From: a virus
DNA: 30,838 nucleotides
Virus record (IMG/VR): IMGVR_UViG_3300029319_000299
Coordinates: 1 to 30,838 of that record
Strand: one strand, 5' to 3'
In this document: one piece after another, positions 7,633 to 28,895 of the stretch
Layout: every line of letters starts with the position of its first letter
How positions within the stretch are numbered: the first letter of the stretch is position 1
Notes under the pieces: generated by a model
The model's input: the letters and a program-made list of their open reading frames with translations, nothing else
Told to the model about the DNA's origin: nothing
Databases searched by the model: none
Program-made: the position numbers and the translations under genes

Positions 7633-7722
7633 ATAAATATTATAATATCTGATATAATATTACTTATAGATTTTCATATTCGAATCTTACGAGATTCCAA
7701 ACAATCAGAGTAGAATAACGAT
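7633..7722 (+). promoter_or_regulatory. Control region upstream of the phage sigma factor gene
   Basis: This 90-base non-coding gap has two perfect TATAAT boxes (7641-7646 and 7653-7658), an inverted repeat GAATCT/AGATTC (7682-7687 and 7692-7697) around a TACG loop, and a near -10 box TAGAAT (7711-7716) lying 6 bases before the ATG at 7723. The gene has no SD sequence. The layout suggests at least one leadered and one leaderless start. No T-tract follows the hairpin, so it is unlikely to be a terminator. Confidence 0.6.
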
Positions 7723-8352
7723 ATGGAAATTAATAATGATTTAGTAATACAGTGGGAACCTAAAATCCAAAAAATGTCCTCATCTGCATTTATAGTGGGA
7801 ATGGATAAAGAAGATTTAGCTCAAGAGTTGAGAATTTCTTTACTTAAGGCCGCAAAAGCTTATGATGAAGGTAGAGGCATTTCTTTTCATACTTATTTAC
7901 ACACATCTTTAGTCAATACAATCAGAACACTAATTAGTAAAGCTCAAAGAAGACCTGTTCCTAAGAGCATAGATGATTATTATGATTTTTCTGATAATGA
8001 TAATCCTGTTATACCCCAAGAAATTCAAAATGCTTTAAGGGCAAATGATAATTATGCCCAAGAAATTGAGCTCGATTTGTTAGTTTCATCGCAACATATG
8101 TCAAAAAGAGAGCGTAAATTCCTAAAGCTAAAGTTTGAGGGGCTTACCATGGATGAAATAACAGATGACTTGAGAGCCTGTAGAATATGTATTTATTGTT
8201 TAGGATATAGAACAGAAGAAAATCAATTGGGAGTACCAGATTTTTCTAAATGTTTGGATAAACAAGGAGATGGGGCTTATAAAATTAGAAACGCACTAAG
8301 AGAAAAATTTAGGTGGTTAGATGAAAAGCTTGAAAAAGACTCTGATTCTTAA
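7723..8352 (+). CDS. Phage sigma-70-like factor with Cys-rich insertion in region 4
   Basis: This 209-residue protein has a clear sigma region 2 at residues about 27-72 (MDKEDLAQELRISLLKAAKAYD, then FHTYLHTSLVNTIRTLI), the part that binds RNA polymerase and the -10 box. Region 4 begins at about residue 126 (MSKRERKFLKLKFEGLTMDEI). The two helices of its helix-turn-helix are separated by about 30 extra residues with C153, C156, C159 and C177, and the presumed recognition helix follows (GAYKIRNALREKF). Four cysteines in that spacing suggest a zinc site. It probably redirects host RNA polymerase to phage promoters. It is read from a SD-less start behind a -10-like box, which opens the possibility of self-activation. 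The end overlaps the next gene by 32 bases. Confidence 0.8.
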   Translation: MEINNDLVIQWEPKIQKMSSSAFIVGMDKEDLAQELRISLLKAAKAYDEGRGISFHTYLHTSLVNTIRTLISKAQRRPVPKSIDDYYDFSDNDNPVIPQEIQNALRANDNYAQEIELDLLVSSQHMSKRERKFLKLKFEGLTMDEITDDLRACRICIYCLGYRTEENQLGVPDFSKCLDKQGDGAYKIRNALREKFRWLDEKLEKDSDS

Positions 8353-8821
8353 AGACTTAAATTCTAAAAGCTTATATGAATTGTTTTCATCTTTATATAA
8401 GGAAAAACACGGGTTTGAATATGAAGGTGTTGGCTTTATAGGGAATGAAATGCATAAGCTAAAAGTGGTTTTAGAGGATTATGGGCCTGAAAATATTGCT
8501 TGTGCTATACTTAATTGTATAAAACGGAACGACAGAACAGTTTCTGTCCCCTATTTTACTGCTGGTATAAAATATTATTTAGTTCCAGATTACCCCGATA
8601 TTTATTGGGCGGTTAAAAGATATGGAACTCCAGAAATAAAAAAGCTCTGGAATGGTCTTATAGTATTAGATTCTATTTGGCTTCCATCAGCATCACAGAA
8701 AAAAGAATTAAAACAAATAAAAAGTAAGTTACAGGAGTGGACTAATGCCCAGACGAAAAAGAGTTCGGGGAAGACTAATACAAAAACAAAAAAATCAACT
8801 GGAATTAGAAAAAAAAGTTAA
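8321..8821 (+). CDS. Unknown protein between sigma factor and helicase
   Basis: This 166-residue protein starts inside the end of the sigma factor gene, with AGGTGG before the ATG. Residues about 15-110 look globular and mixed alpha/beta (LYELFSSLYKEKHGFEYEG, YLVPDYPDIYWAVKRYGTPEIKKLW). The C-terminal 35 residues are very Lys/Ser/Thr-rich and probably disordered and nucleic-acid binding. No Walker or nuclease motif is visible. Its place just before the DnaB-like helicase would suit a helicase loader or replication initiator, but I see no motif that proves it. Confidence 0.65.
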   Translation: MKSLKKTLILKDLNSKSLYELFSSLYKEKHGFEYEGVGFIGNEMHKLKVVLEDYGPENIACAILNCIKRNDRTVSVPYFTAGIKYYLVPDYPDIYWAVKRYGTPEIKKLWNGLIVLDSIWLPSASQKKELKQIKSKLQEWTNAQTKKSSGKTNTKTKKSTGIRKKS

Positions 8822-8993
8822 GATTATTGCTTCAAAGAATGACAATACTGACATTTGGACTGAAGGACAGTTTAATACAGTTGAGGAAGCTATAAATTAT
8901 CTTGACAAGATAGATACGTCTGATGTAACATACAATGTATATTCAGATTCAAATAGGGTAATATATACCAAACAAGGAGGAGTAAGTGCCTAG
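8745..8993 (+). CDS. Small basic protein of unknown function
   Basis: This 82-residue protein has an AGGAG signal before its ATG. It overlaps the previous gene by 77 bases and the next by 8. The first 25 residues are strongly basic (MPRRKRVRGRLIQKQKN). The remainder looks like a small alpha/beta domain (IASKNDNTDIWTEGQFNTVEEAINYLDK, then YNVYSDSNRVIYTK). The long overlap means its basic head and the Lys-rich tail of the upstream protein are encoded by the same DNA in two frames. No family recognised. Confidence 0.6.
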   Translation: MPRRKRVRGRLIQKQKNQLELEKKVKIIASKNDNTDIWTEGQFNTVEEAINYLDKIDTSDVTYNVYSDSNRVIYTKQGGVSA

Positions 8994-10248
8994 TCCGGAA
9001 TTTATAGAATCCGCAGTAATCTTTAATTTAAATACAGAAGGTAATTTACATAATTTTAAACACGTCAAGAATGATTTTGCTAAACATGGAGAAGCATTTG
9101 ATTGGTTAGTAACTTATTTTGACAAACATGGGGAGTTTCCTTCTCAGGTTGTTTTAGAGCAACAGTTTCCTAGCTTAGATTCTAAAGCAAGTGATACAAA
9201 TTTTGATTATGCGTACGAACAATTTAAGCGTTCTTTATTACAGAGAAATGTATTAAGGGCGGTTAATTCTAATTCTAATTTAATTTTTGATGACCCTAAG
9301 AAAGCTTTGTCTAACATAATGTCAGGGCTAACAGACATCGAAACTGTGTATGACGAAGATGTCATGCCTTATGATAGTGGGGAATTGACTAGATTAGAAG
9401 AATGGAAGAATAGAAAACAAAGAAGAAAGTTAGGGGAAGGCTTAATGGGTATTCCTACTAGTTTTGCTTCTTTGAACTCTAGAGGGGTCGGGTGGATGCC
9501 CGGAGAATTAATAGCAGCTTTTGCTAGACCTACAATTGGTAAAACATGGCTTTGTGTTCATGCTGCTGCTACTGCAGTAAAGGCGGGGCATAGAACGTTA
9601 TTAATTTCTACCGAAATGCCTAATCGTGCTATAAACATGAGAATTGATGTAGTGTTAGCAAAACTATATAACTATGAATTTTCTCATATGGCATTACGGC
9701 ATGGAGAACCTATAAATGAAGCTGACTATAGAGACTTTTTAGAAACATCTAACCAAAAAGATTTGTTGGTAAGTGACCATATTGCAGGTCAGATGGGTTT
9801 TTCATTAGAGTCTATTGCTAGTTTAGTCAGAAAACATAAACCAGAGTTTGTTGTGATTGACGGTGTATATTTGATTTCCGCAGGGGATTCAAAATCAGCG
9901 GCTTGGGAGCAGTCACACAGATTGTTTTATGGATTAAAAAATCTAGCTACTGCAATAAATACACCGATATTAGTTACTACCCAAGCTAACAGAGAGGCTT
10001 CTGATATGTTTAGCCCACCAAAACCTAATCATGTGGCATTTGGAGATGCTTTGATTAGAGCCGCAGACGTGGCGTTAGCCATGTGTGGCGTAGAAGATGA
10101 AGACGATAAAAGAATGGTTCAATTCCAAAAATATCGTGATGGGGATTTATCACAGAACATAACCTACATGCAGTGGGGAGTAAACACAGGAGATATAAGA
10201 GAGCTACAAGGGTATACCCCAGCCTATTTTATGCTCGAAGACGAATAG
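8986..10248 (+). CDS. DnaB-like replicative helicase
   Basis: This 420-residue protein uses a GTG start at 8986, fixed by AGGAGG at 8975-8980. Residues 1-130 form a helical N-terminal domain. The RecA-type motor follows with a Walker A-like loop ARPTIGKT (181-188 region), the H1a-type strand LLISTEMP (about 205-212), Walker B VVIDG (289-293) and a sensor Gln in ILVTTQANR (about 328-336). These are the hallmarks of the DnaB/T7 gp4 helicase family, which unwinds the fork 5'-3' as a hexamer. The primase, ssDNA-binding protein and polymerase genes follow directly. RadA-like ATPases are the main alternative, but the MP-G-EL start of the motor domain and the operon favour helicase. Confidence 0.88.
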   Translation: MPSPEFIESAVIFNLNTEGNLHNFKHVKNDFAKHGEAFDWLVTYFDKHGEFPSQVVLEQQFPSLDSKASDTNFDYAYEQFKRSLLQRNVLRAVNSNSNLIFDDPKKALSNIMSGLTDIETVYDEDVMPYDSGELTRLEEWKNRKQRRKLGEGLMGIPTSFASLNSRGVGWMPGELIAAFARPTIGKTWLCVHAAATAVKAGHRTLLISTEMPNRAINMRIDVVLAKLYNYEFSHMALRHGEPINEADYRDFLETSNQKDLLVSDHIAGQMGFSLESIASLVRKHKPEFVVIDGVYLISAGDSKSAAWEQSHRLFYGLKNLATAINTPILVTTQANREASDMFSPPKPNHVAFGDALIRAADVALAMCGVEDEDDKRMVQFQKYRDGDLSQNITYMQWGVNTGDIRELQGYTPAYFMLEDE

Positions 10249-10258
10249 GAGGATTGTA

Positions 10259-10450
10259 ATGGGACTTTTAGATTGGTTTGGAAGTAGCGATGATAGCAAT
10301 ATTGTTGTGAAATCTACACGAAGTAAAGGAGATGGTAGACCAATGATTGACATTACTGTAGGAGATATCAGAAAAGGTATTGCTACAGATGAGAATGGTT
10401 ACCGAAATGAAGTAGTTCTGTTCCTTAGAAAAAACAAAAGGGATAGATAA
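10259..10450 (+). CDS. Small protein between helicase and primase
   Basis: This 63-residue protein has a strong AGGAGG at 10247-10252 overlapping the helicase stop, and its own stop shares a base with the primase ATG. It begins with a short apolar segment (MGLLDWFG) and ends in a basic tail (LRKNKRDR). No motif is recognisable. Tight coupling on both sides implies a replication-linked accessory role, which is inference from position alone. Confidence 0.6.
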   Translation: MGLLDWFGSSDDSNIVVKSTRSKGDGRPMIDITVGDIRKGIATDENGYRNEVVLFLRKNKRDR

Positions 10451-11325
10451 TGGTAGATTGGTACTCTGTATTAACAAAATATGGGGTTGATGTACCTTAC
10501 GAAGAGCAGGTGATGATTAGCTGCCCTTTTCACGATGACAGAAGAGTTTCGTGTTCCTTAAATTTAGATTTAGGATTATGGATTTGTTTTGCTGGTTGTG
10601 GTCAGGGCAGTTTGAAAGGATTTATATTCAAACTTTCCGGCAAGTCTTGGGAAGAATTAAGTTACGAATTAGATGATAACTTAGATATACAATCTACAGA
10701 GCTTGATTCTGTTTTTTTAGAGCAAGAATTAGAAGATGGATACCGAGAAGTAGGTTACGAAGAACCTGAAAACCTAATGGAAGTGCCTAACAACCATTGG
10801 ATATATGACCGAGGCTTTACAAAACAACTAATATTAGAGTGGGATTGTAAGGTAAATCAATATTCAGACTTTATGATTCCGGTTAAAAATACAGATAATG
10901 AAGTTCTTGGTTGGATTTCTAGGCGTTTACAAGCTGTTCCTAAGTATTTATTTTCTAGGGGTTTTAAGAAATCACAAACGTTGTTTGGTATAAACCACAT
11001 AAAAGAAGAGCAAGAACTTTATATAGTAGAAGGTGCTTTAGATTGTATGTGGTTACAGCAGCATGGTTATGCTAGCGTTGGTGTTTTAGGTGCTAACCTT
11101 TCAAAAAAACAAATTGACTTGTTAGGTGAAATTAATCCATCACGAGTGGTATTAGCATTAGATAACGATGATGCTGGTGGCAAAGGTATGCAGAAAGCAA
11201 CCCTTGACATCAATGAACGTTTCCTGATATCATACTTAAGACTACCAAAAAAATATAAAGACGTTCAAGAAATCCGAGATGTCGAGACGTTACGTACGGT
11301 ATTACAAAATAAAACAATAATATAA
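10450..11325 (+). CDS. DnaG-type DNA primase (CHC2 zinc finger plus TOPRIM)
   Basis: This is a 291-residue primase. An N-terminal zinc-binding domain holds C25, H28, C46 and C50 (ISCPFH ... WICFAGC). The TOPRIM domain follows, with YIVEGALDC (catalytic Glu near 194), the VGVLGANLS strand, and the metal-binding DNDDAGG at about 238-244. The chain ends soon after TOPRIM. It therefore resembles the primase half of T7 gp4 and lacks a fused helicase, which is supplied by the separate gene two positions upstream. It makes RNA primers for lagging-strand synthesis. The start is the TAATG at 10448-10452. Confidence 0.9.
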   Translation: MVDWYSVLTKYGVDVPYEEQVMISCPFHDDRRVSCSLNLDLGLWICFAGCGQGSLKGFIFKLSGKSWEELSYELDDNLDIQSTELDSVFLEQELEDGYREVGYEEPENLMEVPNNHWIYDRGFTKQLILEWDCKVNQYSDFMIPVKNTDNEVLGWISRRLQAVPKYLFSRGFKKSQTLFGINHIKEEQELYIVEGALDCMWLQQHGYASVGVLGANLSKKQIDLLGEINPSRVVLALDNDDAGGKGMQKATLDINERFLISYLRLPKKYKDVQEIRDVETLRTVLQNKTII

Positions 11326-11337
11326 TAGGAGATTTAA

Positions 11338-12021
11338 ATGAGTGGTATTGCAAGAATACAACGCAAAAGAGAGGACTTAAGAAGACCTCAACAACAAACT
11401 CAAGCCCCAAGTAGAGAAGTTTGGTTCAAAGATGGTGACCAAGTTTTTCTTTCATCAATTGCGACAGGTAATGAAGAAGATAAGTTTATGGACGAAATAA
11501 ACCTATATACTTTTAGAATGGGTAACAGATGGATAAACTTGCTAAAAGATGAAACTGTAGATGACAGTATAGTTCCTGAAGGTACTAGAGCGTCTAATAA
11601 GTTTGCTTTTTGGGCATATGTTCACAGAATAGTACACTTAGACAGACTAAATGACGATTGGACAGCTGTAGAAGGACCCGGTGGAAAAATGATGTATAGA
11701 GAAGACATCAATGATTTTAGAATTGTTAGTCTAGGTTTTGGGCGAAACGACTATGTTTGGGACCAACTGTCTGGTATTTATAGTGATTGGGGCGGATTAG
11801 ACAAAGGAGTTATCAGAATTAAGAGAAGTGGTGCTGGATTAGAGACTTCTTATACTTTGTCAGCAACTCCACAAACAGAAGAGATACCTGAAGAAAGAAA
11901 AGCTGAGATAACAGAATTACCTTTAGTAAAAGAATACTTTCTTGAGAGATATGGTAAAAACATTGAGTTATCATTAGGAAGTGAGCCACAAGCTACTACT
12001 CCTGAAAAGCCTTTGTTCTAA
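11338..12021 (+). CDS. Putative single-stranded DNA-binding protein
   Basis: This 227-residue protein has an AGGAGA start signal. The central region (about residues 25-160) is rich in aromatic residues in beta-strand contexts (VWFKDGDQVFLSS, YTFRMGNRWINLL, FAFWAYVHRIVHLD, IVSLGFGRNDYVWDQL), as expected for an OB-type ssDNA-binding fold. The C-terminal 60 residues are Glu/Pro-rich and probably flexible, ending in Phe. The tail is only moderately acidic. Position between primase and DNA polymerase fits a replisome SSB. The function is inferred from composition and context. No diagnostic motif was found. Confidence 0.55.
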   Translation: MSGIARIQRKREDLRRPQQQTQAPSREVWFKDGDQVFLSSIATGNEEDKFMDEINLYTFRMGNRWINLLKDETVDDSIVPEGTRASNKFAFWAYVHRIVHLDRLNDDWTAVEGPGGKMMYREDINDFRIVSLGFGRNDYVWDQLSGIYSDWGGLDKGVIRIKRSGAGLETSYTLSATPQTEEIPEERKAEITELPLVKEYFLERYGKNIELSLGSEPQATTPEKPLF

Positions 12022-12026
12022 GTTAC

Positions 12027-14162
12027 ATGACAATTGTAACACCGGAAAACGCAGACGAGCAGTTACATCTGTTGATGGAACGCTTGGATAAAGATTCTGT
12101 TGTTGTTGTAGATGTTGAAACCACAGGTTTAGAAGTACATGATGATGATTTTATTTGTGGTATTGGCGTTGCCCAATTAGATAGTGATTTTTCTCAGTAC
12201 TACCCAGTAGCACACAATCATAACTGTGAAGTTGAGCGTAAGAACAAAAAGCAGAAAGAGCTAGAAGAACGTCTAATTTGTGACGAGTGGTGTAAAGATG
12301 GTAAATATCAGAATGTTGATTCTGTAATTATAGAGTCTTTGATTAATGTACTAAATGACGAAGTTTTTGTTAGTACTTTTATTGGGCACAATATAAAATT
12401 CGACTTACATTTTTTATCTAAACTTGGTTTGAAAGTTAGTAATAGAAAACTAATTGATACATTAGTTATGACTAGACTTACAGAACCTAAATCTGATGAG
12501 AATGTTGGTATAGGATTGACTGCAACGGCTCAGAGAAGATTTGGGGAAGCCGCAGGACAGTATGATATAGACCTAAAGACTACTATGAAACAAAAGAAGT
12601 GGGTTGGTAAGATAGGTTGTTTTTGTCACGAAGCAGTTGATGAAAATGGTAAATCTATAGACCTCGGGCATGGTGGTTATGACAGAGCACCAATTAACTT
12701 AGTCGGTCCTTATTGTGAGCAAGATGTTTTAGTAACAGCAAGGCTTTATAACAATTGTTTAAAAAAGATAATTGATACAGGACAAACTGGTATTTATGAA
12801 CTTCAATGCCAATTAACTAAGACTTTGTTTGACATGGAAGGACGTGGTATTGGTATAGATAACTTTTATGCTAAGTCTGCCAAGAATGCTATCTTGATTA
12901 GACAAGAGGTTGTTGAACGACAAATATATAAATTAGCAGGAAAAGACTTTGATATACTTAGCCCAAAACAAGTTGGGGAAGTCCTAAATGGTATGAACCC
13001 ACCGATACATTCTCCTGTAAAGACTCCAAAGGGTGAAGAATCGTGGAATGAGGCGGCACTTATTAATATAAATCATAGGATTGCAGGATTGATTAGACAA
13101 TACAGAAGTCTTGCAAAGCTTATATCTACTTATTTAGACCCATATATTAAGAAAGATGTGAAACATACGCAGTTTTATAATTGGGGCACTTCTACTGGGA
13201 GATTATCTAGTCAGAGTCCTAACTTTCAAAACATTCCAAGAAACCATTTTAATCTAGAAGAACATGAATTATCTGATGCAGAGAAGGTGGATATTAGAGG
13301 AAAGATTGCAGCAATGATTTCTCAAAAAGGTATTGTCGCTACGCAAGAACTTTCAGATGATGTCTTGTCTACTTGGGCATATATTGGAGATGAATCATAT
13401 AGTGAAGAAGATGATGCTCAGATATCAATTAGAAGGTTATTTATTCCACGTTCGGGATATAAGTTGGTGGGATTTGACTATCAACAAATGGAAGTTCGTG
13501 TTTTTATGTCTTACTTTAGGAACAAAACTATTGATGAAATACTAAACAAAGATGATGTAGACTTTCATAGTGAGGCAGCCAAGCTTGCTTTTGGGGTAGA
13601 TGAGTCACATGAACGTTTCAAAGAGTTTAGACAGTACGCTAAAGCGGTAACTTTCGGCACTATTTACGGTATAGGCAACAAAAAGCTGGCTCAACAGCTA
13701 AGTACTACACCACAAGAAGCTGGGAAATTCAAGAAACAATACTTTCAAGGAATGAAGGGTTCAAAGGAATGGTTTGATAAAGTGGTAGCCACAGCCGGGC
13801 GGAGAGACATCTTAATGAATCGTTATGGGCGGGTGTATAGAATTGACCCTAAATTTGCTTATAAAGGTGTAAATTACATGGTACAAGGTACTAGTGCTGA
13901 CTTATTGACCGAAAGGATGATAGAAGTAGACAAATACCTTGCTGATAAGAAAAGTCATATATTAGTACAGGTTCATGATGAAATTATATGTGAGATACAT
14001 GAATCTGAGTTAGATACTATACCTTATGAGATACAAACTTTACTAGAGCAGAACTCTAAAAACATACCTTTGAAAGTAGACATGGAAGTCTTTACTCCTT
14101 CTTGGGCGACCAAAAAAGAATTGAAGCCCATACCAGCGGAAGATTATATTGACTGGAGCTAA
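12027..14162 (+). CDS. Family A DNA polymerase with 3'-5' exonuclease
   Basis: This 711-residue polymerase has both domains intact. Exonuclease motifs are Exo I VVDVETTG (D29, E31), Exo II GHNIKFD and Exo III YCEQD. Polymerase motif A is VGFDYQQMEVR (near residue 486), motif B is RQYAKAVTFGTIYG (near 535), and motif C is VQVHDEI (near 650). The residue matching Phe762 of E. coli Pol I is Phe. There is no 5'-3' exonuclease domain. Two short insertions in the exonuclease part contain Cys (ICDEWC and IGCFCHE). The ATG at 12027 has neither a good SD nor a -10-like box, so it may be translated by coupling to the gene ending at 12021. It is the main replicative polymerase of the virus. Confidence 0.95.
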   Translation: MTIVTPENADEQLHLLMERLDKDSVVVVDVETTGLEVHDDDFICGIGVAQLDSDFSQYYPVAHNHNCEVERKNKKQKELEERLICDEWCKDGKYQNVDSVIIESLINVLNDEVFVSTFIGHNIKFDLHFLSKLGLKVSNRKLIDTLVMTRLTEPKSDENVGIGLTATAQRRFGEAAGQYDIDLKTTMKQKKWVGKIGCFCHEAVDENGKSIDLGHGGYDRAPINLVGPYCEQDVLVTARLYNNCLKKIIDTGQTGIYELQCQLTKTLFDMEGRGIGIDNFYAKSAKNAILIRQEVVERQIYKLAGKDFDILSPKQVGEVLNGMNPPIHSPVKTPKGEESWNEAALININHRIAGLIRQYRSLAKLISTYLDPYIKKDVKHTQFYNWGTSTGRLSSQSPNFQNIPRNHFNLEEHELSDAEKVDIRGKIAAMISQKGIVATQELSDDVLSTWAYIGDESYSEEDDAQISIRRLFIPRSGYKLVGFDYQQMEVRVFMSYFRNKTIDEILNKDDVDFHSEAAKLAFGVDESHERFKEFRQYAKAVTFGTIYGIGNKKLAQQLSTTPQEAGKFKKQYFQGMKGSKEWFDKVVATAGRRDILMNRYGRVYRIDPKFAYKGVNYMVQGTSADLLTERMIEVDKYLADKKSHILVQVHDEIICEIHESELDTIPYEIQTLLEQNSKNIPLKVDMEVFTPSWATKKELKPIPAEDYIDWS

Positions 14163-14165
14163 ATA

Positions 14166-14765
14166 ATGCCTAAATATATTTTAAAAGAAGAACTTGAAAA
14201 ATATGAGATAAAAACGGGAACCTCCGGAGTTGATGTTCCTTTAGATGAGCATACTATATTACGAGCTGATACTTTTGCTCGGGGCATGGAACAACGAAAG
14301 CCCAACGAAAAACAATATCAAAAAGATGGTCGGAATATTAGGAAAAGAACAGACACTGGAAAAAAAGCTGAATTAGCGGTGGAACAAATTATTCAAGAGA
14401 CTTACACTGATGATACTATTAGTGATACATCTGAGCACAACCATCCGGATTTAAAGTCATTAGGCATGAAGATGGGAGTAAAAGGGGTTACACCTCCATA
14501 TTTTCCGGTTATTTTTAAAGAATCAAAGATTCCCGAAATAATTGCTATTGTTTTCCCAACACATGTAAAAGTGTTAGGAGTTGCTACTGTAGACAATTTA
14601 AATGCTTTTCAGTGGGATAATGGTATAGGAGACCCAAACCTTAGAAAAAAAAGAACTAAAACAACTTTTTGGAACTTTGAGACCATTATACCCTTCCGTT
14701 CCAGAAAACAATTAGAAGAAATATATCACTTTACTAGACTGGGATACTACATTGACTGGGGCTAA
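14166..14765 (+). CDS. Unknown protein, possibly PD-(D/E)XK nuclease-like
   Basis: This 199-residue protein follows the polymerase by 3 bases, with GGAG upstream. A helix containing TGKKAELAVEQII (residues 64-76) followed by HPDLKSLGMKMGVKG (93-107) recalls the E ... D ... xVK order of restriction-like nucleases. The acidic residue usually placed two before the Lys is Gly, so the catalytic triad is incomplete as I read it. The C-terminal part has strands and aromatics (KTTFWNFETIIPF). Gene order next to DNA polymerase fits a repair or replication nuclease. Unknown is the safer label. Confidence 0.65.
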   Translation: MPKYILKEELEKYEIKTGTSGVDVPLDEHTILRADTFARGMEQRKPNEKQYQKDGRNIRKRTDTGKKAELAVEQIIQETYTDDTISDTSEHNHPDLKSLGMKMGVKGVTPPYFPVIFKESKIPEIIAIVFPTHVKVLGVATVDNLNAFQWDNGIGDPNLRKKRTKTTFWNFETIIPFRSRKQLEEIYHFTRLGYYIDWG

Positions 14766-14776
14766 AAAACTGCTAG

Positions 14777-14789
14777 TATAAATATACAA
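14777..14789 (+). promoter_or_regulatory. -10-like box TATAAA placed for a leaderless start
   Basis: CTAGTATAAA precedes the ATG at 14789, with the hexamer at 14777-14782 and 6 bases between hexamer and ATG. No SD sequence is present. Transcription starting about 7 bases after the box would begin at the ATG. TTGACT lies about 19 bases upstream of the hexamer, a loose -35 candidate. Confidence 0.55.
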
Positions 14790-17392: not shown

Positions 17393-17898
17393 TGCAACAA
17401 AGAGAAACCCCTTGGACTCCTATAAAAGCTATTTCAAGAGCTAAAAAAAGTGTAGAATCTTTTGGTATACCTATTTTTGACCCAAATTTACCGAAAGAAC
17501 ATGATTTATTATTCGGGGAGCTGGCAAGTTATCCTGATAATGAGTTAGAAAAGTTTTTAGTTATTTATGGTGGATACAAAGCATCTTTGGAAACTAAACT
17601 TGCAGATATAGAATCTGTCGTTGGGGCTTTAGAAGCGGCTTTTAATGAAGGATATAATACAGCTTTACATCAAGTAGCTAAAGAATATGAAGAGTCAGGG
17701 ACTAAAAAGCCTACTAGAGAAGAGTTAAGAGGTGAAGTAATGACTCGATTTGATGAATTAAGGGAACAGAAAAAAGATATAATTGACCAAACCGTTGAGC
17801 TAAAAAGGTTTCAAGGGTTGTTAAATACTTATACAACTGCTTATCAAACAGTTAGTAGGGTTGTAACTTTACGGACTAAACGGGCAGAAAGTATTTAA
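17392..17898 (+). CDS. Helical protein of unknown function linked to the nuclease
   Basis: This 168-residue protein starts at a TAATG junction with the Cas4-like nuclease gene. From about residue 45 on it is almost wholly helical and charged, with heptad-like stretches (KASLETKLADIESVVGALEAAFNEG, DELREQKKDIIDQTVELKRFQGLL) that predict coiled coils. No catalytic motif is visible. Translational coupling suggests it works with the nuclease or recombinase, for example as a structural or loading partner. That is inference. Confidence 0.65.
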   Translation: MQQRETPWTPIKAISRAKKSVESFGIPIFDPNLPKEHDLLFGELASYPDNELEKFLVIYGGYKASLETKLADIESVVGALEAAFNEGYNTALHQVAKEYEESGTKKPTREELRGEVMTRFDELREQKKDIIDQTVELKRFQGLLNTYTTAYQTVSRVVTLRTKRAESI

Positions 17899-17905
17899 TT
17901 TTTAG

Positions 17906-17917
17906 TATAATATAGTA
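17906..17917 (+). promoter_or_regulatory. -10 box TATAAT placed for a leaderless start
   Basis: TTTTTAGTATAAT ends 6 bases before the ATG at 17917 (hexamer 17906-17911). There is no SD, and no convincing -35 element 16-18 bases upstream. The spacing would put the transcription start on the ATG itself. Confidence 0.65.
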
Positions 17918-21079: not shown

Positions 21080-23014
21080 ATGATATTAGAAAATAAAATA
21101 GAAACACGCACAGAAGATAAATCTACAATCACAGACCAAGCAGAGGTTATTTTAGCTCACCGATATTATTTAAAGGATACTGATGGAGATGTAATTGAAA
21201 ATTCGTCTCAACTTTTTTCTAGGGTAGCTTCGGCTGTTGCTAGTATTGATATACAGTATGGTAAACTTCCTGTAGATGCTCAATTAACTGAGAAAGAATT
21301 TTATAACATAATGTCTAATTTAGAGTTTGTCCCTAACTCTCCGACTTTAATGAATGCTGGTACAGAACAAGGAACTCTTTCCGCCTGCTTTGTATTGCCT
21401 TTAGAGGATAGTATGGAGGGGATAATGAAAGCAGCACACGATGCAGCAATGGTCCAAAAATTTGGCGGTGGGACAGGATTTGCTTTGTCTAAATTAAGAC
21501 CTAAAGGGGACAGAATTAAATCTACTCATGGGATTGCTTGTGGTCCTATAGAAGTACTAAAGACACTTTCAAGGGTGTCATCTATGATTACACAAGGAGG
21601 AAAAAGGGATGGTGCTAACATGGCAGTAATGTCTATTTATCATCCTGATATATTAGAATTTATTGAATGTAAAAAAGTCGAAGGTGAGATACACAACTTT
21701 AATATTTCTGTAGGGGTTGATTCTAATTTCATGAAAGCTGTAGAAGGCAACATGGATTATAATTTAATTAATCCTAAAACCAATGAAGTTGCTGGTTCAC
21801 TTAATGCCCGAGAAGTATTTGACAAAATAGTTTACGGGGCTTGGAGAAATGGTGAACCCGGAATGATATTCTTAGACCAAGTAAACAAAGACAACCACGT
21901 AACTGAAACATATGGAGAGATGATTGCTACTAACCCTTGTGGTGAACAACCATTGTTAGGTAATGAATCTTGTAATTTAGGTTCTATAAACCTAGCTAAG
22001 TTTTATCAAAAAGCTGATGGTCCTTCTCATAGTTGGGACGAAAAGGTAGACTGGAATCGGTTAGAGTGGGTAACAAGAAAGTCTGTTCACTTTTTAGATA
22101 ACGTCATAGATGCTAATAAATATGCAACCGCAGATATTGAAGAAATGACAAAGGCAACTCGAAAGATTGGTTTGGGCATTATGGGTTTTGCTGACTTATT
22201 AATACAAATGCAAATACCCTATGAGTCACAACTTGCAAGAGATGCCGGAAGTAAAATAATGAAATCTGTTAGAGAATGGGCAGATGATGAGTCTAAGCAA
22301 TTAGCTAAATCTAGAGGAGCATTCCCTGCATGGGAAAATAGTAATTACGATAAACAAACAGAAGTCTACAGAAATCATTGTAGACTAACAGTTGCTCCAA
22401 CCGGTACTATATCAATGATAGCTGATACATCTAGTGGTATTGAACCTACATTTGCATTGGCTTGGAAAAAACAAAACATACTAGAAGGTAAGACACTAAA
22501 CTACGTAAACAAGTATTTTGAACAAGATGCTAGAAAGCATGGTTTTTATTCAGAAGATTTAATGGATTATTTGGCAGAAGGCGGTTCACTGGCTACTGTA
22601 CCTGAAGTTCCAGATTGGGCTAAAGCAGTATACGCTACAGCACCGGAAATATCTCCAGAGGACCATGTTCTGATGCAAGCAGCATTTCAAAAAGCTTGTG
22701 ATTCGGGTATCTCTAAAACAATCAATTTCCCAAACTCTGCTACTAAAGAAGATGTAGAAGACGCTTATATGTTAGCATGGAAAGAAGCATGTAAGGGAAT
22801 TACTGTCTATAGGGCGGGTAGTCGAGAAAAAGAGGTCCTTGTAAAAGGTAACGCAGACAAATCAGAGCAGCCAACATTGACTGGATTTGAAATAGAAGAA
22901 AATGTTATTGATAAAACAGTTGATATAAAATGTTGTGCTACACCAAATGTAGTGTTTGCGGATGGTTGTGAAACTTGTAAGTCTTGTGGATGGAGTGCCT
23001 GTTTAATTTCATAG
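21080..23014 (+). CDS. nrdJ: Class II (B12-dependent) ribonucleotide reductase
   Basis: This 644-residue enzyme has AGGAGA at its start. It converts ribonucleotides to deoxyribonucleotides. C103 (SACFVLP) and C298 (NESCNLGSINL) are the redox pair, and NPCGE (285-289) carries the radical Cys287 with Asn285 and Glu289. The glycine-rich FGGGTGF and the conserved VAPTGTISMIADTSSGIEP are also present. The C-terminus ends in C630, C633, C636 and C641 (GCETCKSCGWSAC), the tail typical of adenosylcobalamin-dependent NrdJ. No small subunit or activase gene is nearby, which agrees with class II. It does not need oxygen but needs host or imported B12. It is inserted between terminase and portal and not with the other nucleotide genes. 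Confidence 0.92.
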   Translation: MILENKIETRTEDKSTITDQAEVILAHRYYLKDTDGDVIENSSQLFSRVASAVASIDIQYGKLPVDAQLTEKEFYNIMSNLEFVPNSPTLMNAGTEQGTLSACFVLPLEDSMEGIMKAAHDAAMVQKFGGGTGFALSKLRPKGDRIKSTHGIACGPIEVLKTLSRVSSMITQGGKRDGANMAVMSIYHPDILEFIECKKVEGEIHNFNISVGVDSNFMKAVEGNMDYNLINPKTNEVAGSLNAREVFDKIVYGAWRNGEPGMIFLDQVNKDNHVTETYGEMIATNPCGEQPLLGNESCNLGSINLAKFYQKADGPSHSWDEKVDWNRLEWVTRKSVHFLDNVIDANKYATADIEEMTKATRKIGLGIMGFADLLIQMQIPYESQLARDAGSKIMKSVREWADDESKQLAKSRGAFPAWENSNYDKQTEVYRNHCRLTVAPTGTISMIADTSSGIEPTFALAWKKQNILEGKTLNYVNKYFEQDARKHGFYSEDLMDYLAEGGSLATVPEVPDWAKAVYATAPEISPEDHVLMQAAFQKACDSGISKTINFPNSATKEDVEDAYMLAWKEACKGITVYRAGSREKEVLVKGNADKSEQPTLTGFEIEENVIDKTVDIKCCATPNVVFADGCETCKSCGWSACLIS

Positions 23015-23023: not shown

Positions 23024-23245
23024 TTGGATAAAGAAGAACGGAAAAATTTTGATAATACATATTACAATCATCAGGAAGAGATGAAAGGCATATCTGCGAT
23101 TTTAGATAGCCAAGAATATTTGAAAGAACAAATTATTTTATTATCAGAAAAAGTAGATAAATTAACTCTTTTGTATACTGATTTACAAGAGAAGTATGTT
23201 CATGAAAACAATCAACTTCGTCAAGAATTGACGGGTAGAAGATAA
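23024..23245 (+). CDS. Small coiled-coil protein with TTG start
   Basis: This 73-residue protein begins at TTG (23024), supported by AGGAGG at 23013-23018, 5 bases upstream. It is strongly charged and helical. Residues about 25-70 (LDSQEYLKEQIILLSEKVDKLTLLYTDLQEKY) carry leucine heptads and predict a coiled coil. No other feature. It lies at the end of the reductase transcript. Confidence 0.6.
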   Translation: MDKEERKNFDNTYYNHQEEMKGISAILDSQEYLKEQIILLSEKVDKLTLLYTDLQEKYVHENNQLRQELTGRR

Positions 23246-23260
23246 ATCAGAAAAAAGTAG

Positions 23261-23266
23261 TATAAT
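23261..23266 (+). promoter_or_regulatory. TATAAT promoter box upstream of the portal gene block
   Basis: GTAGTATAATATAAATA lies in the 49-base gap before the gene at 23295. The predicted start is about 7 bases after the box, giving a leader of some 22 bases that contains AGGAGA (23284-23289). The TAG before the box matches the other boxes in this window. No -35 at normal spacing. Confidence 0.55.
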
Positions 23267-23741: not shown

Positions 23742-23743
23742 TA

Positions 23744-25693
23744 ATGAAACTATCCGAATATATGCCTCAAGTTCCCCAAATGCAACAACAAATGGCGGAC
23801 TTAAATAAACAAATTAGTTTACTAGATGTTATGAAATCTGCGGGGGACACAGGTAGTGCTCCTACTGTTGGGTTAGACCAAATTGTAAATACATGGGTAC
23901 GTCACCAAATGGCGTACAGACAACAGTTAGTCCAAGATTTACAGACTGTTGTTATGTCTGTTGAAGAAATCAGAGGCCCCTTATCCCACATAACAGGTGA
24001 AGTTTTTAGACGTGGTATAGAAATAATACCTACAAAAGAAAACGCTGATAAAGAACAAACAGTTAAACTAAAAAATTGGTTAGACGACTGTAATGTGTTT
24101 GACCAAAGTCTAGAAGAAGTACTTAGACAATTTCATATGGACTTAAATTCTTTAGATGATGCTTTTTTGTATATGGCTAAAGAATATAAAGACGAAGGAA
24201 ATGGAAACGTTACTTCTAGATTACAAGAAATTAGAAGACTAAACCCAGCACTTGTAGAGTTTGATTTAGACTCTGCGGGCTTACCTAAGAATGCTCATTT
24301 CTTATGTTTGATTCATAGAGAGCTTGTACAAGAAGCATCCGGTACTTGTGAACGAGAAGATTGTAATGTTAAGCTAGTTCCGGCAATGTACAAATATTAT
24401 CACAGAAGCCAACACTTATATTTTACAGACACTGAAATTATTCATTTGTCTAAGTTTTCTCCATCCGAAACATATGGATGGTCTCCAATACTTACGATTT
24501 TTGAAAAGGCACTAACCTTGATTGGTATGGATAAAAATTTATACCGATTCTTTTACGAAAGAAAAATGCCTGCTTCAATGATTATGGTCACTACAGATGA
24601 CCCAGAGAGTCTAAGAAGAGAAAGAGAGCATATTGCAGCTCAAACTCGGTTAGACCCTAACTATGTTCCTATGGTGGCAGTCTCAGCAAGAAACCAAAGA
24701 GGTAGGGTGGATATGGTGAGGCTGTTCCATACTTTACAGGAAATGGATTATTTACCTGTTCGGGAAGAGATTAGAGAACGTGTGGCAGCTATGTGGGGTG
24801 TTACCCCAGCTTGGCAAGGTGCCCCTGATGCTTTTGGGGGTATGTCTTCACAAACTCAACAACTAGTAGTTATGAGTCGTGTGGTTGAAGGTGACCAAAG
24901 ATTAATTCATGAAAAAGTATTCCCTAGAATTTTAGAAGCTTTTGGTATAACTGACTATGATTTACAATTACCACAGCCAGAAGAAAAAGCTGAAAACACA
25001 AGAATTTCTTTTGCACAACAAAAAATATCTATTGCTAATCAATTCTCTCAATTAGGCTTTGATGTAAAACTAAAAGAACAAGATGTTCCTTTTTGGGAAG
25101 CTGACTTTATTGTTAGTGGTAAGCCTGTACCTACAGCACAAATGCAGGCAGAACAAACTGCTTTGGGTATTGAGCAAACTCGAAAAGCTATGGAACAAGA
25201 AGAACAACAGCAGCAAGCTATGGCTGAACAACAAGCTGCGGCTGCTGAAGAAGGTCCAGTGGCTCCTGAAGAAGAAGGTGCTGAACCTATTCAAGCTATG
25301 CAAAAAGCTTATAAGCCGCCTTCCCAGAGAAAGTTTAAAGGGAGAACGGGTGGAGTGACTCCTGATTGGTCTGACAAACACCCAGACGAAGAAAGAGACA
25401 TTGATAAATATACTGAAGCAAGGGAGAAAAATGAACTAACTTTATCAAAAGGTTGGGTAGAATCATTAAATGAAAAGGGTTTTTCTGCTCCTGTCATAAA
25501 AGAAATAACACCTGATTTATCACAAATGTGGTTTTCAGAAAACAATGTAGATTATATAGCACAGCTATCTGGAAGTGGTGTTACTACAATTGAAAAAGCT
25601 ATTTTTGGTGATGCAACTAGATTTAGTAGATATAAACAAACTGGTAATAGGAAGCCTACAGAACCAACAAAAATTGATATAGACGATGAGTAA
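23744..25693 (+). CDS. Portal protein
   Basis: This 649-residue protein has typical portal architecture. A helical start is followed by a region with DLQTVVMSVEEIRGPLSHITGEVFRRG, the wing and stem sequences including IIHLSKFSPSETYGWSPILTIFEKALTLIGMDKNLYRFFYERKMP, and WGVTPAWQGAPDAFGGMSSQTQQLVVMSRVVEGDQRLIHEKVFPRILEAFG. The last 170 residues are Gln/Glu/Ala-rich, then Lys/Pro-rich, as in portal crown regions. A small Cys pair, CEREDC (202-207), sits in the wing. Portal dodecamers form the DNA entry vertex and dock the terminase. Position upstream of the scaffold and capsid genes fits. Confidence 0.85.
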   Translation: MKLSEYMPQVPQMQQQMADLNKQISLLDVMKSAGDTGSAPTVGLDQIVNTWVRHQMAYRQQLVQDLQTVVMSVEEIRGPLSHITGEVFRRGIEIIPTKENADKEQTVKLKNWLDDCNVFDQSLEEVLRQFHMDLNSLDDAFLYMAKEYKDEGNGNVTSRLQEIRRLNPALVEFDLDSAGLPKNAHFLCLIHRELVQEASGTCEREDCNVKLVPAMYKYYHRSQHLYFTDTEIIHLSKFSPSETYGWSPILTIFEKALTLIGMDKNLYRFFYERKMPASMIMVTTDDPESLRREREHIAAQTRLDPNYVPMVAVSARNQRGRVDMVRLFHTLQEMDYLPVREEIRERVAAMWGVTPAWQGAPDAFGGMSSQTQQLVVMSRVVEGDQRLIHEKVFPRILEAFGITDYDLQLPQPEEKAENTRISFAQQKISIANQFSQLGFDVKLKEQDVPFWEADFIVSGKPVPTAQMQAEQTALGIEQTRKAMEQEEQQQQAMAEQQAAAAEEGPVAPEEEGAEPIQAMQKAYKPPSQRKFKGRTGGVTPDWSDKHPDEERDIDKYTEAREKNELTLSKGWVESLNEKGFSAPVIKEITPDLSQMWFSENNVDYIAQLSGSGVTTIEKAIFGDATRFSRYKQTGNRKPTEPTKIDIDDE

Positions 25694-26417
25694 GTTACAA
25701 AAACAAATTAAGAATGATTTAGAACTGCCTAGAGGTGAAACAAAAGTACTTCAGGCGGAAGATAAAGATTATGATAGAGGTTTACTTGTAAAACTTTTAG
25801 AGGATGGAGGCTATGATGTTGTTTATTGGTATGACAAATTGAAAGCGTATCCTATTGAAGTATTAGTTGATGGTGAGTCTGTAAAGAAAGATGCTAAAAA
25901 AGTTACATTTAAGTTTCACCCAGAACTACAGAAAGCTTTAGATTTATCTAAAGAGAATGGTGGTGGAGGAAACGGAGGTGGTGGCGGTGCTGCTACTTCA
26001 GGTTCTTTTGGTAGTGGTGGAGGTACAGTATTTACTTCAACCAACTCTGGTATATATTCTCCAACTTATGGTGGGGGTAGTCGGAGGAGACCAAAAAAAC
26101 GAAGAAAAAAAAGTGGTATAGATAAACTTGCTGATTTTGTAACTGACAATTCTCCTGAACGTAAAATGATAAAAGACCTTGCATCTTTTGTTATTAAGGC
26201 TCTTGAGAAAGACGAAAAAAAATTTCAAGAAGGTAAAAAATTTAGACAACAAACTAGTTCTACTGAAATGAATGATAACATTGCCCGTGTTGATTACCAA
26301 AAGGGTTGGATGGGTGGATATCAAGCTGATTCTCTAGCTCGGGGTGGGGAAAAAGACCGAGATAGTTATGTTAGTGATGAAATAGAAGAGGAAACAGAAG
26401 AAAGGGAGTTCAAATAA
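25686..26417 (+). CDS. Unknown protein with glycine-rich hinge and basic patch
   Basis: This 243-residue protein overlaps the portal end by 8 bases. Residues 1-92 look like a compact domain (LLVKLLEDGGYDVVYWYDKLKAYPIEVLVDGE). A long Gly/Ser stretch with runs of GGGG follows (about 93-130), then a strongly basic patch RRRPKKRRKKS near 134-144, and a helical acidic end (EIEEETEEREF). The layout suggests a flexible linker between two domains with a DNA- or acid-binding patch. It lies in the head gene block, so a virion or head-tail accessory role is plausible. Family not recognised. Confidence 0.6.
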   Translation: MSKLQKQIKNDLELPRGETKVLQAEDKDYDRGLLVKLLEDGGYDVVYWYDKLKAYPIEVLVDGESVKKDAKKVTFKFHPELQKALDLSKENGGGGNGGGGGAATSGSFGSGGGTVFTSTNSGIYSPTYGGGSRRRPKKRRKKSGIDKLADFVTDNSPERKMIKDLASFVIKALEKDEKKFQEGKKFRQQTSSTEMNDNIARVDYQKGWMGGYQADSLARGGEKDRDSYVSDEIEEETEEREFK

Positions 26418-26729
26418 ATGTTGAACTCACAAACATTATATGATAACCTATGTTCTAAATGTAGAGGTCATATGTATATAAACGAAGATGAGGACTTACA
26501 GTGTTTTACTTGCGGTAAAATATTAGTAGTCACAGTGCGGAGGCATTATGATACCACAAATAGCTCACTCAGAAATAAAAAGAAGGAGAGCACTAGGTTG
26601 GACATGGACCAATCTAGCAAAATGGATAGAAGAAGAGTACGGAACGAAGGTTCATCGAACAACCATTCAAAGATGGTACGACAAACAGGTTTGGGCGGAC
26701 AATCAAGAGGACTTACCGCAGGAAGATAG
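26418..26729 (+). CDS. Small zinc-ribbon protein overlapping the phosphoesterase gene
   Basis: The frame starts immediately after the previous stop and encodes 103 residues. Residues 12-32 form a textbook zinc ribbon (C12, C15, C29, C32: LCSKCRG ... CFTCGK). The remaining residues from about 44 on lie in the +1 frame over the first 182 bases of the next gene and are low-complexity, basic and Ser/Asn-rich, as expected for an out-of-frame read. The zinc ribbon argues that the first part is real. The C-terminal part may be passive overlap or a basic tail. A sequencing frameshift that splits a zinc ribbon-helix-turn-helix fusion is the alternative. Confidence 0.55.
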   Translation: MLNSQTLYDNLCSKCRGHMYINEDEDLQCFTCGKILVVTVRRHYDTTNSSLRNKKKESTRLDMDQSSKMDRRRVRNEGSSNNHSKMVRQTGLGGQSRGLTAGR

Positions 26730-27864
26730 TTTATCTGACCGAATAAAGCTCGATAAAAAAGTCGCAACACATAAAAGTGAAGCTAATCTTTACAAAAAAC
26801 TTTACCAACAATCTTTAAAAGACAACACTAAACAAGAACTTATTGTTGAAGCCATACAAGAGTTTGCCAAAGCATTTCCAGCTGTTCCCTTAAGGCAATC
26901 TAAAAACACTAAAAAAAACCCTTTCGGAGAGAAAAGTCAAATTATGGTTGCCCCTTTAGCTGATACCCACATAGGAGAACATGTATTCAAAGAGCAAATG
27001 CGGGGCTTGAATGAATATAACTTTGATATATTTAATAAACGTATGTATGGTTGGGTCAATGAAATCCTAAAGCACGCTTCGCATAGAAGACAGGTGGTGT
27101 CTGTAGATGAACTAATTATCCCAATGTTAGGTGACATGATTAGTGGAGACATACACGAAGAGTTAGCTAGGTCTAATATGGCTAACTGTATGGAGCAAAT
27201 GAGTAGGGGAGCTAGTATTATTGGACAAGCTTTGATGTATCTAGCACCACACTTTACAAAAATTAGAGTTCCTTGTGTAGTTGGTAATCATGGGCGAATG
27301 ACAAGAAAACCTCCTATGAAAGATAAGTATATGGATTGGGATTATATGCTTTATCAATGGTTGGCGGCATTTTGTAAGAATCAAGAAAATATAGAGTTTC
27401 ATATTCCTAGAAGCTTTATGACTACTTTCAAAGTACACGACCAAGTAGTCCTTATAATGCATGGGGATTCTATATCCGGTGCAGGAAGTGGTGGGGCGAT
27501 AACAGGAGCTATAACTAAACTTAGAAGTGTATTTCAATATCGAAAGGCTTTGCAAAGAGAAATAGAAGATTCACTGGATGATGATTCACAGATAGAGTTT
27601 GATAGTGTTATGATTGGTCATTTTCACAGAATTGATGAAGTAGATATAGGCACAGGAGTATTACTTATATGTGGAACCATGAAAGGTCCTGATGAATTTG
27701 CTCTGCAAAGACTTCATGCAGCGACTAAACCTAAACAAATAATTACTTTCTGGGACGCAGAAGATGGTTATAAAAGTAGAGAAATTATATCTTTTAATAA
27801 ATATGACACCAGCAAAAGAAAGTTTATAGACAAGATTCCTGAAAAGTGGATAGATTTTGTATAA
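26548..27864 (+). CDS. Calcineurin-like metallophosphoesterase with N-terminal helix-turn-helix
   Basis: This is a 438-residue protein. GGAGG at 26539-26543 fixes the start at 26548. Residues about 1-50 (EIKRRRALGWTWTNLAKWIEEEYGTKVHRTTIQRWYDKQVW) form a helix-turn-helix like those of transposases and small terminases. From about residue 130 the phosphoesterase motifs appear in order: APLADTHIGE (D, H), LGDMISGD, VVGNHGRM, IMHGDSIS and IGHFHRID. These residues bind two metals. Such enzymes hydrolyse phosphate diesters or monoesters, including DNA ends (Mre11/SbcD-like). No SbcC partner is seen. Location in the head gene block is unusual for a repair enzyme. Confidence 0.85.
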   Translation: MIPQIAHSEIKRRRALGWTWTNLAKWIEEEYGTKVHRTTIQRWYDKQVWADNQEDLPQEDSLSDRIKLDKKVATHKSEANLYKKLYQQSLKDNTKQELIVEAIQEFAKAFPAVPLRQSKNTKKNPFGEKSQIMVAPLADTHIGEHVFKEQMRGLNEYNFDIFNKRMYGWVNEILKHASHRRQVVSVDELIIPMLGDMISGDIHEELARSNMANCMEQMSRGASIIGQALMYLAPHFTKIRVPCVVGNHGRMTRKPPMKDKYMDWDYMLYQWLAAFCKNQENIEFHIPRSFMTTFKVHDQVVLIMHGDSISGAGSGGAITGAITKLRSVFQYRKALQREIEDSLDDDSQIEFDSVMIGHFHRIDEVDIGTGVLLICGTMKGPDEFALQRLHAATKPKQIITFWDAEDGYKSREIISFNKYDTSKRKFIDKIPEKWIDFV

Positions 27865-27874
27865 TCTTAAATTA
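27860..27874 (+). promoter_or_regulatory. Possible -10 box TATAAT before a SD-less gene
   Basis: TATAAT at 27860-27865 overlaps the stop codon of the phosphoesterase gene and ends 8 bases before the ATG at 27874. There is no SD. A start about 7 bases after the box would give a leader of only about two bases. This is the least certain of the series because it is preceded by TTTG and not TAG. Confidence 0.4.
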
Positions 27875-28311
27875 TGCCCATACATAAACGTTTTGACATA
27901 GATTGGTATATTACTAATGACGCATCTGGAAAAAAAGCCGTCACATGTTTTTTACAAAAACAAGGGCTATCTGTTAAAGAAAATTCTAATAAATATGGCA
28001 TAGACTTAATAACAAATGGTACAACTCATAAGGGACGAGTATTTAGTAGTGTGCCTGTTGAAGTAGAAAGAAGGCAGATATGGGATAAGACCTTTCCTTT
28101 TCCTACAGTGCATGTGCCGGAAAGAAAAACTAAGTTTCTTAAACACTATATGTTATATGCAGTAGTTAATTTGAATTTTAACAAAGTTATGTTTTGTTCT
28201 TCAGATATTATTAAACAATATAAACCCATAGAAATACCAAATAAAGCTGTGGCAAACGATGAATACTTTTATGATGTTCCAATAACTTGTTGGGAAATTC
28301 ATGATATTTAG
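27874..28311 (+). CDS. Possible PD-(D/E)XK nuclease or resolvase-like protein
   Basis: This 145-residue protein begins with a helix (DASGKKAVTCFLQKQGLSV) followed by NKYGIDLITNG (D44) and VPVEVERRQIW (E63, E65). A first helix, Y-G-I-D-L strand and E-V-E strand are the core of small restriction-like nucleases. The usual Lys two residues after the Glu is replaced by Glu/Arg, so activity is uncertain. The rest includes PERKTKFLKHYMLYAVVNLNFNKVMFC, which could be the later strands of the fold. No SD is seen; a TATAAT box lies just upstream. A non-catalytic virion protein cannot be excluded. Confidence 0.55.
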   Translation: MPIHKRFDIDWYITNDASGKKAVTCFLQKQGLSVKENSNKYGIDLITNGTTHKGRVFSSVPVEVERRQIWDKTFPFPTVHVPERKTKFLKHYMLYAVVNLNFNKVMFCSSDIIKQYKPIEIPNKAVANDEYFYDVPITCWEIHDI

Positions 28312-28323
28312 TATAATAACTTA
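28312..28323 (+). promoter_or_regulatory. -10 box TATAAT placed for a leaderless start
   Basis: TTTAGTATAAT (hexamer 28312-28317) ends 5 bases before the ATG at 28323, the same spacing as at 17917. No SD is present. TTGGGA lies about 16 bases upstream of the hexamer as a loose -35. It overlaps the stop codon of the preceding gene. Confidence 0.65.
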
Positions 28324-28895
28324 TGGCTACTCAAAAATCCGCAGATAGAGAAATTACTCGAATACTAACGTCATTTTTACATGGTGTAGGGGATAGAGTT
28401 TTTAAGTTATCTAAAGAAGATGCGATTAAAGTTACTGGAAGTGCTTCACAAGCAGAAAACCAAGTCCAATTAATTAAAGATAAAGGTGGATTTAGATTAG
28501 AACTTTCGGGAGGAGTGGTAGACCTTTTGTCTCCAGATGAAAATAATAAGCCTAAAATCTTACAGTCATCTACTTTTCAATCTAAAAGACATTATAGGAA
28601 GGCAACTACAGTTGTACCTAAAAGTCCTAGATATAAAGTTGGTTCTTATTTAAGGTCTGGTGGATATGTTAGGGCACATCCTAAAACTTGGAAGCCCGGA
28701 TTTAGGCCTCGATATGATGAGAGTTCTAACAGCTGGAGAACCGATAGTATAGATACAAATTTTGGCTATCGTATGTCAGCAGTAAAAAGAAAAAACGATT
28801 GGGTAGCAGAAAATATGGATAAAATTTTTAGTAAGTTGTCAGATGAAGATATTATTCTAATGGCAATGCATGGAGTTATTCCAGAATATGAATAA
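28323..28895 (+). CDS. Unknown basic protein in the head gene block
   Basis: This 190-residue protein appears to be expressed from its own TATAAT box. The N-terminal 80 residues contain a helix (DREITRILTSFLHGVGDRVFKL) and a small strand region (GGFRLELSGGVVDLLS). Residues about 95-135 form a distinctive segment rich in Tyr, Arg, Gly and Pro (SPRYKVGSYLRSGGYVRAHPKTWKPGFRPRY), which looks like a nucleic-acid or protein-binding loop. The C-terminus is helical (NDWVAENMDKIFSKLSDEDIILMAMHG). No family recognised. It may be a virion or head assembly protein. Confidence 0.6.
   Translation: MATQKSADREITRILTSFLHGVGDRVFKLSKEDAIKVTGSASQAENQVQLIKDKGGFRLELSGGVVDLLSPDENNKPKILQSSTFQSKRHYRKATTVVPKSPRYKVGSYLRSGGYVRAHPKTWKPGFRPRYDESSNSWRTDSIDTNFGYRMSAVKRKNDWVAENMDKIFSKLSDEDIILMAMHGVIPEYE

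Follow-up and report, generated by a model that had tools for sequence, protein, structure and literature searches.

A rigid two-part promoter motif, with an ECF-like phage sigma factor as its likely reader, appears to serve leaderless and leadered genes in uncultured oceanic phages

The virus record IMGVR_UViG_3300029319_000299, analyzed here as a whole (30,838 bases; hereafter the window), carries a recurrent octamer, AGTATAAT, ahead of several of its genes. An earlier note on this DNA had described AG-TATAAT boxes lying shortly before start codons that lack a Shine-Dalgarno (SD) sequence, and had proposed a class of leaderless phage promoters. A recurrent class of this kind does exist, on which the window and about 155 related loci agree. 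Our main finding is that the octamer is one half of a two-part motif, the other half being an upstream element, TAGRWWWWT; that the motif is conserved in position ahead of the same genes among relatives; and that its close placement before a start codon and an SD sequence exclude each other. We infer from the sequences that the motif is a promoter, for which a phage-encoded sigma factor of the extracytoplasmic function (ECF) type is the likely reader. The phages concerned form a large family, uncultured and oceanic, that has this one rigid two-part promoter in common.

No close relative of the window was found among the 50,697 cultured or deposited phage genomes searched: tblastn queries with the phage polymerase and reductase matched distant cultured phages only, and in the phage collection the terminase gave a weak match to Bacteroides phages only. 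IMG/VR searches with the terminase and the sigma factor yielded 80 and 75 related loci, respectively, which were compared with the window. Genes in all loci were called by a codon-usage score that is blind to SD sequences and promoter motifs, and starts whose 120-base context was at least 80% identical to one already kept were dropped, leaving 766 starts.

The bare hexamer TATAAT is not enriched in the window, with 24 copies on the + strand and 22 on the - strand. AGTATAAT is present four times on the + strand and once on the - strand; all four + copies are intergenic, and two end 5 bases before a start. Among de-duplicated sites in the relatives, 65 of 79 in sense orientation are intergenic (14 coding), as against 3 of 24 in antisense orientation (21 coding). 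'Intergenic' matches in L090, L109 and L121 were discarded because sequence comparison indicates that they lie inside a helix-turn-helix (HTH)/zinc-ribbon gene missed by the caller.

The distance between box and start codon is bimodal. In the de-duplicated loci, AGTATAAT ends 5, 6, 7 and 8 bases before 12, 4, 1 and 2 SD-less starts, respectively (n=19), and before no SD-bearing start at this range; ahead of SD starts it lies 18-37 bases upstream, with a peak at 28-34. TATAAT occurs 4-9 bases upstream of 25 of 237 SD-less starts vs 1 of 529 SD starts (Fisher P = 1e-12), so all but one of the 26 close boxes belong to SD-less starts; in a hexamer-permutation control, the best of 19 others reached 9 SD-less and 3 SD starts. 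The mutual exclusion of close box and SD suspected in the earlier note therefore holds well beyond the window, and the motif, enriched before SD-less starts, mostly intergenic and strand-specific, is not merely as frequent there as elsewhere. Most unboxed SD-less starts overlap or directly adjoin the preceding gene, and because their median gap to the previous stop is 1 base, compared to 19 for boxed starts, they are probably translationally coupled or miscalled. By its placement, the mRNA of close-boxed genes is predicted to be leaderless. The proposal of a leaderless class stands only in part, however: some members are leaderless by this criterion of placement, but most are leadered.

Conservation was followed in syntenic slots picked without reference to the motif, so as not to select perfect matches only. 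The exact octamer was found in all 12 head-operon (capsid) leaders, upstream of the tail gene (MxVYRSDQAQ) in 8 of 8 cases, and upstream of the portal operon in 22 of 26 distinct sequences; in the other four (L072, L073, L075 and L080) the box precedes an inserted small gene. The site of gene 17917 is kept in L005, L025, L038, L044 and L036. In the slot of gene 28323, 15 of 18 upstreams have the exact octamer, though the protein is often only about 30% identical. In two members of this slot the box is farther from the start (22 bases in L041, 20 in L061), and G-rich SD-like sequences are present (AAGGGGG, AAGGGAGGG); in their kin the box lies 5-8 bases before the start and no SD is present. 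Because this single slot has both arrangements, one promoter appears with either translation mode.

The earlier note had also held that the -35 region contributes little or nothing. This is contradicted by an upstream element kept in five slot classes, and by a region-4-like, -35-reading domain in the phage sigma factor. A purine pair with G at -18/-17 from the A of AGTATAAT is present at 53 of 61 promoter sites vs 7 of 38 control copies of the octamer from coding or antisense positions (P=7e-12); at no other offset do all five slot classes coincide. In promoter coordinates (first T of TATAAT at -12) the pair falls at about -32/-31, within an element whose consensus is about TAGRWWWWT and which spans -34 to -26. 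In the non-coding head-operon leader, TAGGATTTT is kept amid variable flanks; in the portal, tail and 28323 slots the upstream gene runs into the element, so that coding constraint may account for part of the conservation. A matrix of both elements, trained with the window and its near kin left out, ranked 29163, 23261, 28312 and 17906 first to fourth among 61,616 window positions (22.3, 21.9, 20.3 and 18.5 bits), the fifth-best position reaching 11.3 bits. At 17 bits or more, it gave 130 sense vs 0 antisense matches in 1.9 Mb of kin. The boxes at 23261 and 29163, already assigned to leadered genes, are thus of the same class as those of genes 17917 and 28323 (Table 1).

All seven boxes named in the earlier note are present in the sequence where it placed them, but its five leaderless sites fared unequally. 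Those of 17917 and 28323 are strong, and that of the sigma gene at 7723 is degenerate but conserved: its box, AGTAGAAT, is a weak match (rank 19 of 61,616), but both L084 and L132 retain AGTARAATAACGAT-ATG, even though the sigma protein of L132 shares only 49% identity. A perfect dyad, GAATCT-TACG-AGATTC (7682-7697), stands before the sigma gene and is kept in the same two loci; because it overlaps the presumed upstream element, autoregulation of sigma is possible. Two TATAAT boxes at 7641 and 7653, 70-82 bases upstream of the gene, are possible host-read early promoters.

The remaining two sites are not members of the class. At 14789 the proposed TATAAA box gives way to another element, TTGACT-N16-TGn-TAGWAT-N9-ATG, which is conserved in relatives: over nine distinct upstreams it begins with TTGACT, TTGAAA or TTGAAT by lineage, followed by a spacer of 16 or 17 bases, TGn, TAGWAT and exactly 9 bases before the ATG. 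TTGA is encoded through different codons across lineages, which argues against a coding accident. As read from these alignments, this is an extended sigma70-type promoter with a predicted leader of about 0-3 nt, and, by eye, a similar arrangement (TTGTTT-N16-TARTAT-N6-ATG) precedes the sigma gene in L087 and L089. Two promoter classes, a phage-like and a host-like one, thus make use of leaderless placement. The TATAAT at 27860-27865, proposed for gene 27874, found no support: it spans the stop codon of the preceding gene (27862-27864), ranks 60 and is not conserved, a 98%-identical relative having GTAGAAT and L159 no box. Gene 27874-28311 is itself present in only a few kin, inserted between genes 26548 and 28323 and parting the latter from its usual neighbor. 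A TATAAT at 11321 was also rejected, as it belongs to a stop-codon region ahead of an SD start.

Table 1. Predicted promoters, genes and other features of the window; all called genes are on the + strand
Feature	Position	Strand	Details
Two-part (class A) promoter, predicted leaderless	17884-17911	+	Element 17884-17892; AGTATAAT 17904-17911, 5 bases before ATG 17917 (RuvC-like)
Class A promoter, predicted leaderless	28290-28317	+	Element 28290-28298; AGTATAAT 28310-28317, 5 bases before ATG 28323
Class A promoter, predicted leadered	23239-23266	+	Element 23239-23247; AGTATAAT 23259-23266, 28 bases before ATG 23295 (portal operon)
Class A promoter, predicted leadered	29141-29168	+	TAGGATTTT 29141-29149; AGTATAAT 29161-29168, 114 bases before ATG 29283 (head operon)
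Degenerate class A-like promoter of sigma gene, predicted	7689-7716	+	Element around 7689-7697; AGTAGAAT 7709-7716, 6 bases before ATG
Sigma70-like promoter of DUF3310 gene, predicted	14752-14788	+	TTGACT 14752-14757, N16, TAGTAT 14774-14779, 9 bases, ATG 14789
ECF-like phage sigma factor (sigma2 + sigma4, 209 aa)	7723-8352	+	Pfam Sigma70_r2, E=5e-11
HTH + zinc-ribbon protein	7240-7632	+	Weak Sigma70_r4/HTH_23 matches; directly before sigma
Structured head-operon leader	29169-29282	+	Alignment and pair counts over 11 kin
Tail genes	1-7.3 kb	+	
DnaB-type helicase	8986	+	
Primase	10450	+	
DNA polymerase A	12027	+	
RecA	15503	+	
RuvC-like	17917	+	
Terminase	18895, 19398	+	
Class II ribonucleotide reductase	21080-23014	+	
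Portal (putative)	23744	+	Assigned by position and neighbors, not by family match
Head genes (putative)	29283 on	+	Assigned by position and neighbors, not by family match

The phage sigma gene postulated for the window is indeed present. Sigma70_r2 matches 35 of 35 aligned homologues, and r4-type Pfam models match a minority of them. In a profile search the best matches are sigma-E, sigma-H and AlgU, with an alignment that takes in the two domains of E. coli sigma-E (residues 27-175); we read a conserved C-terminal stretch, LTMEEITEDLGESAYKVRQSLREK, as the region-4 HTH. The protein has the makeup of an ECF (group 4) factor, namely region 2 and a region-4 HTH, no region 1.1 or 3, and a length under about 210 aa. 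A fold search with the window protein also matches sigma-E, but adds little beyond the sequence profile because the AlphaFold model is confident in region 2 alone (mean predicted local distance difference test, pLDDT, 71; predicted template modeling score, pTM, 0.36). Within the region-4 HTH, the sigma of the window clade has a Cys-rich insertion (CRICIYC...FSKC; 8170-8275), and that of L126, L128 and L134 has an unrelated insertion at the same place. A homologue of the neighboring HTH/zinc-ribbon gene adjoins sigma in 71 of 75 sigma loci and is mostly better conserved than sigma; its product is a candidate co-regulator.

Bacterial genomes searched with a terminase profile yielded no relative, which closed the prophage route to the host, and the ribonucleotide reductase was used instead. 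The phage class II enzyme branches as sister to chromosomal enzymes from Chloroflexota of the SAR202 group (Shimodaira-Hasegawa-like approximate likelihood ratio test, SH-aLRT, 100), and one SAR202 reductase gene adjoins ftsZ and nrdR (names from our reading of the sequence). The host is likely a SAR202 bacterium. Since leaderless genes have been reported for Chloroflexi (4-6% in 4 of 12 genomes, PMC3160421), such a host can plausibly translate leaderless mRNAs. In the putative host genomes, AG precedes intergenic TATAAT in 11 of 169 (G005) and 7 of 71 (G004) cases vs 160 of 448 in phage loci; AGTATAATN{4,8}ATG does not outnumber its reversed control, and AGTATAAT near ATGs does not exceed control. 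Because neither AG nor close ATG placement is enriched there, the tight AG box looks phage-like rather than general host usage.

The explanation that we consider likely is a dedicated two-part phage promoter with leaderless as well as leadered output. The ECF-like sigma would steer host RNA polymerase to it, sigma2 reading AG-TATAAT in the invariant octamer (about -14 to -7) and sigma4 reading the upstream element across a fixed gap. With the octamer 5-8 bases before the ATG, transcription would start at or within about two bases of the ATG and yield a leaderless mRNA; with the octamer 18-37 or about 115 bases upstream, the mRNA would have an SD leader. The class is expected to drive late structural operons (tail, portal and head) along with a few single genes (RuvC-like 17917 and gene 28323), and a second, host sigma70-like class would serve 14789. 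Because the sigma has region 4, a two-part promoter fits an ECF-like factor better than gp55-type recognition. More tentatively, and with somewhat less than even confidence, we suggest that one sigma-defined regulon yields leaderless and SD-led mRNAs from the same promoter, with the box-to-ATG distance alone deciding, and that during infection it may shift part of SAR202 protein synthesis toward leaderless initiation.

Several points weigh against the dedicated phage promoter. TATAAT is the housekeeping -10 consensus, which is unusual for an ECF-like sigma, and specificity could instead come from the HTH/zinc-ribbon protein encoded next to sigma. Divergence has brought the sigma down to 37-50% identity, with the motif visibly unchanged, and because the motif does not vary, sigma-motif co-variation is unusable. 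Three class A-like sites are present in 456 kb of putative host genome, and the assignment of that host depends on one gene. Finally, our P values ignore kinship and are inflated by the relatedness of the loci.

The alternative that best survives, unlikely in our judgment, is that TATAAT is read by host sigma70, with a phage activator on TAGRWWWWT standing in for the -35 contact, much as MotA/AsiA act on T4 middle promoters, and that the phage sigma serves otherwise. The -10 is indeed the exact sigma70 consensus, the upstream element is about where the T4 Mot box sits (-30 to -27, PMC1524935), and the conserved HTH/zinc-ribbon gene lies at hand next to sigma. However, the octamer, including AG, is near-invariant, which is tighter than sigma70 requires; the sigma70-like promoter of the same phages, in the 14789 slot, looks different; and no MotA or AsiA homologue was seen, albeit without a systematic search for them. 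It is improbable that the phages merely copied an ordinary host promoter type, housekeeping or alternative: a few good matches do occur between the genes of a SAR202 genome, and leaderless genes are reported in Chloroflexi (PMC3160421), but the AG and the close ATG placement are unenriched in the putative host genomes tested. We give still less credence to the idea that the box is a promoter but that the mRNA of close-spaced genes starts upstream or arises by read-through, with translation coupled rather than leaderless. Several boxed genes do begin 10-25 bases after the previous gene, but the spacing is narrowly confined to 5-8 bases and does not co-occur with an SD, and the median gaps of boxed and unboxed starts differ (19 vs 1). 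Chance hexamers in AT-rich DNA explain single cases such as 27860, as well as the overall count of bare TATAAT (24 and 22 on the two strands), but as an account of the class they have a negligible probability, being excluded by the held-out matrix, the strand bias (130 vs 0) and the conservation in syntenic slots.

The head-operon leader is itself structured. A helix (29234-29245 / 29262-29273) pairs ACCTTTTATGAT with ATCATAGGAGGT and covers the SD; over 11 kin, compensatory changes occur at five helix pairs, and 95.9% of the cells of the leader structure pair vs 34-48% when it is slid. The leader has an invariant block, GGTCGGA(GG)TGGCTnAGACCAACCT, and as a whole gave no match in Rfam; a translational switch is possible. 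Just 3' of the head-operon promoter, an inverted repeat of the type TAACGTT-TAAATA-TAACGTTA (29173-29193), kept in kin, is a candidate operator or hairpin.

What emerges is a predicted late promoter open to testing, together with the sigma factor that probably reads it, for a large uncultured marine phage group with a probable SAR202 host. Leaderless and SD-led starts below one promoter, within a single gene slot, make a natural experiment on the interchange of initiation modes. The promoter matrix is usable for delimiting the regulon in hundreds of environmental contigs, and the kinship of the ribonucleotide reductase is a host lead for the whole group.

Phage sigma factors have precedents, as do leaderless genes; a non-exhaustive literature search found no report of this rigid combination spanning a large clade of uncultured phages. 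The middle and late sigma factors of SPO1 (gp28, gp33/34) have their own -35 and -10 sequences and time class; their consensus sequences differ from those described here, and SPO1 genes are leadered. The cI gene of lambda is a phage gene with a leaderless mRNA. Unlike the class found here, it is a single repressor gene read by host sigma70. The 14789 promoter follows the host sigma70 pattern, with a TTGACA-like -35, a spacer of 16-18 and a TATAAT-like -10. Bacterial leaderless genes with a TANNNT box have been described (Zheng 2011, PMC3160421, in which lambda is named; Deinococcus-Thermus, PMC12340547), and resemble the present ones in having a -10 box about 6-7 bases before the open reading frame, no SD and a near-zero leader; they use a host housekeeping -10, often without a -35, whereas here the motif is rigid, two-part and phage-wide, and also serves leadered genes. 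T4 middle promoters combine a Mot box (GCTT, -30 to -27) with TataAT (PMC1524935), and thus share with ours a sigma70-like TATAAT and a non-sigma70 element near -30; the element here is TAGRWWWWT, not GCTT, and leaderless use is not described for T4 middle promoters (PMC1524935). T4 late promoters, TATAAATA at -13 to -6, are read by the phage sigma gp55 (PMC1524935). Both systems have a phage-encoded sigma-family protein, a short, highly conserved AT-rich -10 motif and late structural genes; unlike T4 late promoters, which have no -35 element, those described here have the octamer AGTATAAT and an upstream element in five slot classes, the phage sigma has a sigma4-like domain, and some of the genes are leaderless by placement.

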